In this document: positions 2,736 to 11,653 of the stretch, in pieces
Position numbering within the stretch: the stretch's first letter is position 1
Layout of the letters: each line of letters opens with the position of its first letter
Assembly: GCA_019454705.1 (NCBI GenBank)
Contig: JACFNS010000017.1
Location: forward strand, 1-11,977
Direction of reading: 5' to 3'
Origin: Taibaiella sp.
GTDB lineage: Bacteria; Bacteroidota; Bacteroidia; Chitinophagales; Chitinophagaceae
DNA length: 11,977 bases
Position numbers and translations under genes: made by a program
The notes under the pieces: model-generated
The model's database searches: none
The model's input: only the letters and a program-made list of their open reading frames with translations
Told to the model about the DNA's origin: nothing

Positions 2736-3260
2736 ATGAACGCATACGAACTCATATTCTGGTTGCTTACGGTTATGGCTATCAGCTGTGCGCTGGGTGT
2801 TATCCTCAGCCGCAACCCTGTAAGCAGTGTATTATTCCTGATTGCTACTTTCTTCGCTGTGTCAGGTCATTATATATTAATGAACGCACAGTTCCTGGCG
2901 ATTGTAAATATCATAGTGTACGCAGGGGCAATCATGGTACTGTTCCTGTTCGTCATCATGTTGATGAACCTGAACGCTGATACCGAACCTCAGAAGAACC
3001 GGCTGGTGCAGTTGGCGGGTGTAGTATCGGGGGGAATATTGTTCCTGGTGATACTGGCAGCGCTCAAGTCATCTACTAATAATATGCTGGAGCAAACAGC
3101 AACAGATATAGGATTGATAAAGAACCTGGGCAAGACGCTGTTCACGCAGTTTGTGCTGCCTTTCGAAATAGCGAGTGTCCTTTTCCTGAGTGCGATGATT
3201 GGTGCGGTAGTGTTAGGGAAAAAAGGAGAGGAAGAACCCCAAACCCCTAAAGGGGCTTAA
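2736..3260 (+). CDS. nuoJ: NADH-quinone oxidoreductase subunit J, with repeat-encoded C-terminus
   Basis: This is a small membrane subunit (174 residues, about five helices) near the quinone and E-channel region of complex I. The conserved third-helix block VYAGAIMVLFLFVIML is at about 61-76, including the conserved Y62. The last helix ends near VVLGKKG. The final seven residues, PQTPKGA (168-174), are encoded inside the 23-bp repeat at 3236-3258, and the stop codon TAA (3258-3260) begins on the repeat's last base. The original C-terminus has therefore probably been replaced by repeat sequence. This follows a charged, presumably exposed tail, so function is probably kept. Cassette insertion separates the gene from nuoK by about 400 bp instead of a few bases. 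Confidence 0.94.
   Translation: MNAYELIFWLLTVMAISCALGVILSRNPVSSVLFLIATFFAVSGHYILMNAQFLAIVNIIVYAGAIMVLFLFVIMLMNLNADTEPQKNRLVQLAGVVSGGILFLVILAALKSSTNNMLEQTATDIGLIKNLGKTLFTQFVLPFEIASVLFLSAMIGAVVLGKKGEEEPQTPKGA
3236..3258 (+). repeat. Left 23-bp inverted repeat of DUF559 cassette
   Basis: This repeat is the exact reverse complement of 3636-3658. It starts ACCCCAAACCCC and continues TAAAGGGGCTT; CCCCTAAAGGGG inside it forms a small stem-loop. It overlaps the last codons and the first base of the stop codon of nuoJ. The DUF559 start codon follows six bases later. Confidence 0.9.
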
Positions 3261-3264
3261 GGGT

Positions 3265-3630
3265 ATGAAGAAGGAAATGTTTTACGGAGCAGGTCCTTTG
3301 ATATTTGAGAAAGCTAAAGCGTTAAGAAGTGAGTTAACGCATGCTGAATTAGTTCTTTGGGGTTATTTAAAAACTAGTCCGGCTGGATTCAAGTTCAGAA
3401 GACAGCATCCCGCCGGAATATATATTGTTGATTTCTATTGTCATGAATTGAAATTGGTAATTGAGGTAGATGGAGGAATTCATGAAAAAATGGAGATAAA
3501 GCAACATGATGAGAACAGGGAGAGAGATTTGACAGATTGGGGGCTAAGAGTGGTAAGGTTTAAGAACGAAGAAGTAGAAAAGCAATTAGAAGTAGTGATT
3601 AAAACAATAGAAAAATTATTAGTTAAATAA
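3265..3630 (+). CDS. DUF559 domain protein (Vsr-like endonuclease fold)
   Basis: A 121-residue protein covering essentially one DUF559 domain, a family placed with the very-short-patch-repair (Vsr) and PD-(D/E)XK nucleases. Visible signatures are LTHAELVLW (24-32, E28), FKFRRQHP (42-49), IVDFYC (54-59, D56), IEVDGGIH (66-73, with E67, D69 and H73), DENRERDL (82-89) and LRVVRFKNEEV (94-104). These include the acidic residues expected for a metal-dependent nuclease, so activity is plausible but unproven. The ATG at 3265 is six bases after the left inverted repeat, and the stop is five bases before the right one, so gene and repeats form one compact unit. All seven arginines use AGA or AGG, which suggests a separate origin from the nuo genes. 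It lies in the sense direction in the operon and is probably co-transcribed. Its biological role is unknown. Confidence 0.85.
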   Translation: MKKEMFYGAGPLIFEKAKALRSELTHAELVLWGYLKTSPAGFKFRRQHPAGIYIVDFYCHELKLVIEVDGGIHEKMEIKQHDENRERDLTDWGLRVVRFKNEEVEKQLEVVIKTIEKLLVK

Positions 3631-3635
3631 AAGGA

Positions 3636-3658
3636 AAGCCCCTTTAGGGGTTTGGGGT
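3636..3658 (-). repeat. Right 23-bp inverted repeat of DUF559 cassette
   Basis: This is the perfect inverted copy of 3236-3258, reading AAGCCCCTTTAGGGG followed by TTTGGGGT. It lies between the DUF559 stop and the nuoK start codon at 3663, only four bases away, so it forms the nuoK translation-initiation region. It resembles the solo elements at 9537-9564 and 11819-11868 in layout: a C/G hairpin followed by a spaced G-run. Confidence 0.9.
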
Positions 3659-3662
3659 AACT

Positions 3663-3962
3663 ATGCCAATACAATATTATTTATTCTTAAGCCTGGCTTT
3701 ATTCAGCATCGGTATCATGGGTACGCTCATGCGCAGGAATGCCATTATCATATTCATGTGTATAGAGCTGATGCTGAATGCCGTGAACCTGTTGCTGGTA
3801 GCATTTTCAAAAATGTACAACGACCCTTCTGCCCAGATATTCGTGTTCTTCAGCATGGTGGTGGCAGCGGCAGAAGTAGCGGTTGGATTGGCGATAATAG
3901 TAATGATGTACCGCAAAGTACATTCGGTGGATATCAATATTTTGAACAGATTAAAACATTAA
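3663..3962 (+). CDS. nuoK: NADH-quinone oxidoreductase subunit K
   Basis: This is a three-helix membrane subunit of complex I (99 residues, the usual size) in the proton-transfer path between NuoH/J and the antiporter-like subunits. The two key buried glutamates are present: E35 in [18 protein letters not shown] and E71 in [15 protein letters not shown], matching E36 and E72 of E. coli. The C-terminus [14 protein letters not shown] looks like a normal family ending, so the downstream insertion has not altered it. The start codon lies four bases after the right repeat of the DUF559 cassette. A second cassette begins a few bases after the stop. Confidence 0.95.
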
Positions 3963-3970
3963 GAAAAGTA

Positions 3971-3996
3971 AAAATTCAAAAGTCAAAAATCAAAAA
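3971..3996 (+). repeat. Left heptamer tract of four-helix-bundle cassette
   Basis: The units AAAATTC, AAAAGTC, AAAAATC and AAAAA follow in strict 7-nt phase. The tract is the inverted counterpart of 4384-4409 with three mismatches. It lies 8 bp after the nuoK stop and directly before the GTG at 3997. Confidence 0.75.
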
Positions 3997-4377
3997 GTGG
4001 ATGATGAACAAAATATAATTGCTGAACCTGAGAAGGTATATGACATAAAGCACAGGGCTTATATCTTTTCCAGGGAGGTTGTCGGTTATGTTGGTGAAGT
4101 GAAGTTTGACAGAATATATTTTTCAATTTTTGACCAGTTAGTAAGGAGCGCTACATCAATAGGTGCAAATTTAGTAGAAGGCAGAGCAGGGACGACAAAG
4201 AAAGATTTTTTGAATTATTACGCTATCGCTTTGAAATCAGCCAATGAAACAAAATATTGGCTTTGTTTGATAAGAGATACTTTGGATATAGATAAGAATA
4301 GGATAAAAGGATTGCTGGAAGAAGCGGATGAAATTTCGAAAATAATCGCAAAAATCATCATCTCAACAAAGGGCTAA
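3997..4377 (+). CDS. Four helix bundle protein (23S rRNA intervening-sequence / S23 family)
   Basis: A 126-residue, mainly helical protein. The family signature QLVRSATSIGANLVEGR is at 47-63, followed by KKDFLNYYAIALKSANETKYW at 68-88. These are typical of the four-helix-bundle family first found in 23S rRNA intervening sequences and related in fold to the Avd protein of diversity-generating retroelements. Helices are expected at about 16-33, 38-62, 67-94 and 100-122. The only usable start in frame is GTG at 3997; the ATGs at 4001 and 4004 are in another frame that stops at once. No reverse transcriptase or template repeat is in the window, so a DGR is not indicated. Role unknown; the related Avd binds nucleic acid and reverse transcriptase. 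It lies in the sense direction and is probably transcribed with nuo. Confidence 0.82.
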   Translation: MDDEQNIIAEPEKVYDIKHRAYIFSREVVGYVGEVKFDRIYFSIFDQLVRSATSIGANLVEGRAGTTKKDFLNYYAIALKSANETKYWLCLIRDTLDIDKNRIKGLLEEADEISKIIAKIIISTKG

Positions 4378-4383
4378 ATACCT

Positions 4384-4409
4384 TTTTTGAATTTTGGTTT
4401 TTGAATTTT
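4384..4409 (-). repeat. Right heptamer tract of four-helix-bundle cassette
   Basis: The 7-nt units TTTTTTG (from 4383), AATTTTG, GTTTTTG and AATTTTG run in phase and end 11 bases before the nuoL start. The tract is the inverted, 23-of-26 match to 3971-3996. It forms most of the upstream region of nuoL. Confidence 0.75.
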
Positions 4410-10381: not shown

Positions 10382-11602
10382 TTATTCGCCCTTCGTCAAC
10401 TTGATGCGTGTTGGCGGGTGCATCTCTTTTATCACAAAAAAGTAGTCGAAAGATGCTGATAGTCTCAGGTGCTCTTTGTAGAAATTCTTTTTGCCCGCAC
10501 TTACCATATTATATTCCGCGCCAAAGTTGTTGATCATTTGTTTTTTGTCCACCAGCTCATGTTCCCTGTTCTTACCGATGTTGATACCCAGCAGGCCATT
10601 GTTTTTATCTTTTAGCTGATCTTCTATAGTGCCGGGGTAGTGCACTGCTGTATAAGTATGCATCACCGTTTTACCGTTTTCATTGGTATTTGCCAGAAAG
10701 TTACCTCCCTCAAAGCCAAAACCTATCACACGGTAGCCGTCTCCATAATGTTTGTGCAACATTTCACCTACCGATGGCCTGCCCGAATACTTTTTGCTTA
10801 GGTGATCGTTATGCGCCCATATCACCGCCTTTTCGCCGGCGGGTATACGGTCAATAATATACCGCGCGAATTGATACATAGCTTCTTCCCTGCATTTCCT
10901 GGCTTCGCCTCCCGCTGTCACTCCACATTTATAAGATTGTATCATATTGTTACGTTGTATAGAGTCGTATGTGGTGATAACCTCGGTCGAATTTTGCTCC
11001 AGCATTTCATCATAAATTTTCAGACGGGTTTTTTCATCCCGTTTTATCGTCTCCAGTTTCGCCAGCAGTGTAGTGTCCATATCAAAGGATAACTTATTAT
11101 AAAGCCGGTGCTCATTATACCGTGTACGTAATATTCGGTGGGCTGTTACATCCATACCATAAAATTGCACCTGTTCAGTCTCCGGTTTCCCCATATTATA
11201 AGACTTCAACCATTCCAGCAGGTTTGCAAACTCTTCGATGGCGAAGGGCCATGCTATGTTGTGCAGCACTAAAGCACGTAGGTCACCCTTTCCTTTACTG
11301 ATGTATTCATTGATAGCCTTACAGGGTATATATCCCCCTTCCAGTATAAAATGACGGTAGTTGTATTTCTGTACCAGCAGCTTTACTATCTCGCTGCGTA
11401 CATCCGTACATTCCACTGTGCCATGCGTGCATTCGCCCAGTCCCAATACTCGGGTGCCGGAGGCTATGTCATGCAGTTCTTCCTTATAATTGAAGCTCTG
11501 GGCATTTTCAGATGAAGAGTATTGCAGCTCCCCGGCAGACTGGGCAATAGTATTATAGCTTGTGCATAGAAGCAGGCCGAGTATTAGTATCGTTTTGTTC
11601 AC
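10382..11602 (-). CDS. Exported erythromycin esterase family protein
   Basis: A hydrolase-like protein of the erythromycin esterase (Ere) family, 406 residues from the GTG at 11602. That start gives MNKTILILGLLLCTSYNTIAQS, a normal Sec signal peptide with likely cleavage near A20. An in-frame TTG at 11635 would add 11 residues; a GGAGG lies directly against it with no spacing, so it is less convincing. Family motifs are VLGLGECTHGT (52-62), with E57 and H60, then R69 and E88, GMDV (149-152), AVIWAHNDHLS (259-269, H264 and H267), GEMLHKHYGDGYRVIGFGFEGG (279-300), and a DYFF block near the end. The spacing E-x2-H, R at +9 and E at +28 agrees with the active-site residues reported for EreB. Unlike EreA/EreB it appears exported, so macrolide resistance should not be assumed; the substrate is unknown. 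Confidence 0.86.
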   Translation of the reverse strand: MNKTILILGLLLCTSYNTIAQSAGELQYSSSENAQSFNYKEELHDIASGTRVLGLGECTHGTVECTDVRSEIVKLLVQKYNYRHFILEGGYIPCKAINEYISKGKGDLRALVLHNIAWPFAIEEFANLLEWLKSYNMGKPETEQVQFYGMDVTAHRILRTRYNEHRLYNKLSFDMDTTLLAKLETIKRDEKTRLKIYDEMLEQNSTEVITTYDSIQRNNMIQSYKCGVTAGGEARKCREEAMYQFARYIIDRIPAGEKAVIWAHNDHLSKKYSGRPSVGEMLHKHYGDGYRVIGFGFEGGNFLANTNENGKTVMHTYTAVHYPGTIEDQLKDKNNGLLGINIGKNREHELVDKKQMINNFGAEYNMVSAGKKNFYKEHLRLSASFDYFFVIKEMHPPTRIKLTKGE

Positions 11603-11653
11603 ACAACTTTGTTTTTGGAATATGAAATTATTCAACCTCCTGGTAATCAGGGA

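Follow-up and report, generated by a model that had tools for sequence, protein, structure and literature searches.

The window, by which we mean the whole stretch of 11,977 nucleotides that was analysed, lies in a nuo (complex I) operon of Taibaiella sp. At its nuoJ–nuoK junction, a short ORF with a DUF559 domain is enclosed by inverted repeats (the left and right arms). The features are as follows.

2736–3260, plus strand: nuoJ; its final seven codons and the stop come from the left arm.
3236–3258, minus strand: left arm, consisting of the tail ACCCCAAA followed by the palindrome CCCCTAAAGGGG, with most of the last nuoJ codons inside it.
3265–3630, plus strand: ORF of 121 aa for a predicted DUF559 (EDxHD/Vsr-fold) nuclease, assigned from its translation, a PF04480 match and the predicted fold.
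3636–3658, plus strand: right arm, consisting of the palindrome CCCCTTTAGGGG followed by the tail TTTGGGGT, adjoining the start of nuoK.
3663–3962, plus strand: nuoK, which starts 4 nt past the right arm.

The two 23-nt arms are 100% complementary and are separated by 377 nt, and the whole cassette forms a unit of 423 bp. Read from the outside in, an arm is a tail and then a palindrome, a REP-like architecture with a C-rich tail. The inverted alignment score of the arms was 23, compared with a maximum of 9.5 in 10 shuffles of these flanks. The ORF matched PF04480 (DUF559) with an E-value of 3e-31, and the ORFs on either side contained NuoJ and NuoK domains. ORF, domain and complementarity thus confirmed an earlier note on this DNA, which had described a 121-codon DUF559 ORF between exact 23-bp inverted repeats. 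The same note had placed the cassette precisely between nuoJ and nuoK. The junction was correct but the left arm encodes the end of nuoJ: the last seven codons and the stop (3237–3260) consist of the arm and two bases past it, giving a NuoJ C-terminus of ...GEEEPQTPKGA-stop. The Pfam matches in the cassette were DUF559 and a weak REase_MTES_1575; a Y1/HUH transposase was absent, and neither ORFs nor domain matches revealed any transposase gene enclosed by the arms.

A profile of 23 DUF559 domains matched PDB 3hrl, an endonuclease-like protein (3e-32), and PDB 3r3p, the catalytic domain of I-Bth0305I (E 2.9e-7). An AlphaFold2 model with a mean pLDDT of 88 matched the same two structures (E 3.4e-4 for the I-Bth0305I fold) and gave a weak match to Vsr (E 0.07). 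Profile and predicted fold therefore both point to the Vsr-like catalytic domain of EDxHD homing endonucleases, a name that a 2022 paper also gave to a DUF559 gene (PMC9403480, available part). D56, E67, D69, H73 and D82 (ORF numbering; D42, E53, D55, H59 and D68 in fragment numbering) were invariant in 23/23 aligned free and in-gene DUF559 domains, which suggests selection for activity. Judged from the alignment, these residues are a candidate active site with a putative catalytic role. We conclude that the ORF probably encodes a DNA-cutting enzyme.

Allowing up to 3 mismatches, we found nine copies of the 23-mer in the window's own genome and none in a backwards control. Two of the nine are the cassette arms. 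The rest stand alone, for example before a pntB-like gene, or form close inverted pairs, as at the scoA–scoB-like and recX–mnmG-like gene borders (gene names read from translations). DUF559 matched once in this genome. The repeat is thus not always paired with DUF559, a point that the earlier note had wished to see checked; most copies stand alone or in short pairs.

NuoK matched in 47 of the 59 genomes in our set of relatives, and the nuoJ–nuoK junction was readable in 23 of the 24 nuoK loci compared. The DUF559 profile matched one of 30 fetched nuoK loci, the window's own (the upstream sequence of one locus, L050, is incomplete). A genome of the same genus (G003) has both repeats at the junction with about 35 nt between them, two genomes of other genera (G030 and G033) have other or decayed repeat pairs, and a fourth (G001) has no repeat pair of the window type. 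We rejected the short G003 pair as a candidate unit remnant, since its score of −6.15 did not exceed those of 200 shuffles, which reached −2.2. Short repeat pairs were also seen at nuoK–nuoL in G003 and in Bacteroidetes bacterium UBA4414, and none in G002. UBA4414 (locus L218) carries DUF559 at the nuoJ–nuoK junction, with 66% protein identity to the window copy, a right arm identical to the window's and a diverged left arm. Presence of the gene at this junction across the whole family, which the earlier note had named as evidence against a mobile unit, was therefore not seen in these loci. Most relatives' junctions lacked the gene, but they did not resolve an exact empty site.

The position of the repeat copies in the window's genome, mostly at gene borders, would fit a reading in which DUF559 is a useful host repair enzyme and the palindromes are insulating mRNA hairpins or terminators. 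VsrA of Caulobacter, a protein with a DUF559 domain, has been interpreted as a likely mismatch-repair endonuclease (PMC12907096, available part). This reading leaves unexplained the patchy presence of the gene at nuoK loci, and we return to it below with the units found inside enzyme genes.

To assess how general the layout is, we took the best inverted alignment score between the 200-nt flanks of each DUF559 locus and set a threshold of 12. DUF559 matched in 27/59 relatives (E up to 1e-3) and in 153/395 genomes of the class (E up to 1e-15). The threshold was reached at 51 of 74 DUF559 loci compared with 5 of 740 shuffles, with the weak or partial loci L031–L036 set aside. Among named loci the figures were 49/78 and 10/780 (two of 80 loci were omitted for short flanks); 29/53 of these loci in Bacteroidota and 20/25 in other groups reached 12, the latter including cyanobacteria, Kiritimatiellae, Desulfobacteraceae and an archaeal bin. 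Control loci reached it in 3/28 cases for NuoK and 6/23 for Y1_Tnp, after omission of incomplete loci (2/30 and 7/30, respectively; 2/30 in the IVP set considered below). When the DUF559 loci were pooled (four of 154 omitted), 100 of 150 scored at least 12, as did 192 of 1494 swapped flank pairs, and 50 of 150 stayed below. In direct orientation 49/150 of the same flanks also reached 12, as palindromic arms can. In a plasmid collection with 39 records hit, 8 of 13 fetched loci scored at least 20 with 250-nt flanks; the 13 comprise nine alphaproteobacterial, two E. coli, one Deinococcus and one Synechocystis locus. The one-gene layout, which the earlier note had thought possibly general, is thus found at many loci, also outside Bacteroidota.

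The arms themselves were REP-like. In 80 arm pairs with a score of at least 14, a stem of at least 5 was present in 148 of 160 arms compared with 447 of 800 shuffled ones; from the outside in, a C-rich tail preceded the palindrome in 41 pairs and the order was reversed in 18. DUF559 units share with REPtrons the layout of inverted REP-like palindromes around a gene. Two Sinorhizobium megaplasmid loci of DUF559 (L409 and L412) have very long inverted arms, with scores of 104 and 46, and every arm is built from a pair of palindromes. Paired DUF559 genes about 560 nt apart occur at L165 (G116:C114) and at G114:C1:2788343-2789293, where they alternate with palindromes.

REPtrons have their gene between inverted REPs (PMC3733652, available part), and the palindromes could likewise be ordinary REPs that are mobilised by a RAYT (Y1 transposase) from another place in the genome, with DUF559 a passenger between two of them. 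Y1_Tnp was indeed common, matching in 44/59 genomes, and inverted repeats flanked some Y1 loci, as noted above for the controls. Across genomes, repeat presence tracked DUF559 instead. A generic repeat pattern occurred in 16/59 relatives; DUF559 was found in 14/16 of these and in 13/43 of the others (p=1e-4), whereas Y1_Tnp was found in 13/16 and 31/43, respectively (p=0.74, no link), with shared ancestry ignored in both comparisons. A second pattern in the 395 class genomes gave 35/42 versus 118/353 for DUF559 (p=7e-10, shared ancestry again ignored). Both patterns cover part of the repeat types. The repeats are thus statistically linked to DUF559, and not scattered at random as they would be in the other case that the earlier note had held against a mobile unit. 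Furthermore, two repeat-bearing genomes, G015 (13 pattern matches; 72% complete) and G027 (5 matches), had no Y1 match, and the arms at Y1 loci differ in sequence from DUF559 arms. We therefore regard movement by a RAYT as unlikely. The Y1 loci L104, L110, L112 and L119, perhaps of REPtron or TIRtron type, do have strong inverted repeats (scores 19–33), but with a different sequence.

In 1.6 Mb of one genome (G114), we counted 150 palindromes (one in a shuffle) and seven DUF559 ORFs, three of which lie between two palindromes. A 13-mer scan for inverted pairs mostly returned pairs unlike the repeats of DUF559 units, and the palindrome scan revealed numerous clusters of repeats with no DUF559, so DUF559 is not the sole neighbour of repeats. 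As a further candidate, we considered DUF559 as the missing mobiliser of CGTC REPs and rejected it: a CGTC-type end motif was present in 0/13 plasmid-collection loci. The literature describes CGTC REPs as having no transposase dedicated to them (PMC3733652, available part).

Many DUF559 domains were embedded in long reading frames. Open frames of at least 280 aa surrounded DUF559 in 18 of 46 strong rows in relatives and in 80 of the best 150 class rows, a selection that favours high scores. By eye, the IVP matches listed contained no such long frame and the Y1_Tnp rows one. Another Pfam family was present in 39 of 40 long ORFs scanned and in 10/10 of a further set; L025 and L038 (2/42 of the first set) and 17/27 named long ORFs were outside these scans. 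Nineteen rows of the 40-ORF scan were LeuRS or a class I synthetase of the LeuRS kind (two of them being one gene with two units), nine were MetH, two an IcmF-type mutase and two HsdR. AroC, MetRS, IleRS, an M23 peptidase, HemE, a PurL-type amidotransferase and RecG were found once each, and one ORF had no second domain. The further ten were six HsdR, two Type ISP specificity, one HsdM and one amino acid kinase. Some units split a single domain in two (Chorismate_synt, Met_synt_B12, tRNA-synt_1g); in others the insertion is at the border of a domain or at its end (HemE, PurL-type, amino acid kinase). The matches reported for the 50 in-frame ORFs (at 1e-8 for the 40 and at 1e-6 for the ten) included no intein or Hint family around the nuclease. 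One LeuRS gene (L013 and L039, G016:C90) carries two different in-frame DUF559 units, and apparent lone repeats are translated in frame elsewhere in LeuRS at L013 and L015.

We compared one site, a loop of MetH between ALSDF and DYIG, within a single genus (36 genomes, 34 with a match, 30 MetH loci read). Ten of the 30 loops were empty, eight held DUF559 units and three held lone repeats; one held a deleted unit, one a repeat remnant and seven other short inserts. The deleted unit (L300) is 177 nt long and has lost internal sequence, but neither its two ends nor the beginning of DUF559. The insert length was a multiple of 3 at all 30 loci. The eight units were of two types with differing ends, type a (five) and type b (three), the latter running GACCTCACCCC...GGGGTGAGGTC. 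G469 and G458 are close by their flanking MetH sequence, yet carry different unit types, and filled and empty alleles coexist within the genus. No clear target-site duplication was seen in the flanks of the 30 loci, and no exact empty site was resolved among the loci compared. At L313 (G274), a type-b unit is followed by an apparent type-a-like tail. These different occupants of one loop, and units inside LeuRS, MetH, HsdR and other genes, are likewise left unexplained by a host repair enzyme with insulating or terminating hairpins; we think that account improbable, and a repair role is unlikely to be the whole story.

Two DUF559 copies in G003 were 95.7% identical over 375 nt and this similarity stopped no more than one base from where the right arm ends on its outer side; the flanks beyond differ. 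This pair fixes one end of the unit, because the left end of one copy is off its contig. The L139/L140 and L131/L143 copies were about 74–75% identical and did not fix any ends. In a tree of 73 rows and 108 columns (35 of 70 inner branches open; one short row omitted), free and in-gene copies were separated by five changes, compared with a shuffled mean of 23.8. Close relatives occurred in different host genes, MetRS with CinA and IleRS with RecG (support 89 and 92). LeuRS and MetH labels were dispersed over the tree with some clustering, which indicates that related copies have in part used one gene repeatedly. Since the in-gene lineage is largely apart from the free one, to which the window copy belongs, what it shows is indirect evidence for the window copy. 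Taken together, the layout, the MetH states, the G003 copies and the tree lend good support to the view that DUF559 units move, and to the suggestion of a minimal mobile unit without a transposase from which this analysis started.

The E. coli DUF559 gene ycjD lies between sapF and fabI (L423, E. coli H15, 2189–2542) in many, not all, genomes; 3362/5426 genomes hold at least 80% of an 1800-base query. We rejected this presence and absence as proof of an empty site: in the two strains without ycjD that we compared, other genes come after sapF, so these offer no clean empty site. The repeat test found no inverted pair at two E. coli loci. At L420, a palindrome-like tail follows ycjD.

Movement of the units might also come about if another process spreads the repeats, and homologous recombination and horizontal transfer shuffle the DUF559 units while the nuclease is uninvolved. 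Repeats far outnumber DUF559 genes, DUF559-free repeat pairs lie at the same junctions, and Legionella segments that combine a transposase with DUF559 are reported to be hotspots of recombination (PMC12308824, available part), all of which would fit. The link between repeats and DUF559 across genomes and the residues invariant in 23/23 domains argue against it, and we give this explanation little credence.

Similar units in many bacteria, often in frame inside enzyme genes, have the look of a one-gene mobile element. Our preferred reading, to which we assign a probability of about 0.65, is that the 423-bp unit is such an element, a homing-type DUF559 endonuclease with REP-like ends that moves without a transposase. 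Its own nuclease would drive the movement: it would break the target, in many cases perhaps in or next to a palindrome copy already there, and repair of the break would copy the unit in. Inside genes, survival of a unit would require an intact reading frame, a constraint that would favour ends free of stop codons and the rise of a read-through lineage. Repeats that stand alone or in short pairs may be sites left behind or not yet filled. Whether these units amount to a separate class of transposable elements is a more tentative matter, on which we lean slightly to the negative; such a class would be nuclease-only and transposase-free, have REP palindromes as ends and landing sites, move from one conserved gene to another in many phyla, keep the frame in essential enzymes and seed the lone palindromes found in these genomes.

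Several known systems resemble these units in part. Profile, fold and a one-gene selfish logic are shared with I-Bth0305I, an EDxHD homing endonuclease. I-Bth0305I differs in being a mobile intron protein by its PDB name, whereas the DUF559 unit has neither intron nor intein, and in having a long multi-domain DNA-binding form (PMC3943268, available part), whereas the unit encodes a compact domain and is bounded by inverted palindromes. REPtrons (a RAYT gene with inverted REPs) are similar in their small nuclease-type gene between palindromes and their dispersed lone repeats, but the units described here have DUF559 where a REPtron has a Y1/HUH transposase, and their repeats do not track Y1_Tnp. 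Rickettsia palindromic elements and intragenic REPs (PMC3733652 and PMC10969869, available parts) are in-frame palindromes within protein genes, as are the lone in-frame repeats seen here; unlike these elements, DUF559 units carry an ORF. MITEs share the short paired inverted repeats and the internally deleted form (L300), but the full DUF559 unit is protein-coding and has no known parent transposon. Insertion sequences differ by the transposase between their terminal repeats. In the available parts of the literature that our search returned, DUF559 is not described with terminal palindromes or as in-frame units.

If true, the preferred reading would account for unusual in-frame insertions in enzymes such as LeuRS and MetH and would add movement by way of a homing nuclease to the routes that DNA can take; where annotation shows a DUF559 domain within an enzyme, that domain may then be parasitic, with no functional fusion involved. 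Should DUF559 nucleases mobilise this G/C-rich type of palindrome, the source of palindromic-repeat mobility becomes testable here.

A second cassette lies between nuoK and nuoL of the window. It spans 3971–4409 and has a 23S rRNA IVP (PF05635) ORF at 3997–4377 between AT-rich inverted arms at 3971–3996 and 4384–4409 (score 18.5). At IVP loci in relatives, inverted arms were present in 23/28 cases compared with 1/280 shuffles, and many had iterated units of ~10 nt. The cassette may be a separate one-gene system. Elsewhere in the window, an ORF of 417 aa at 10382–11635 on the minus strand encodes what we take, by eye, to resemble an erythromycin-esterase-like protein.
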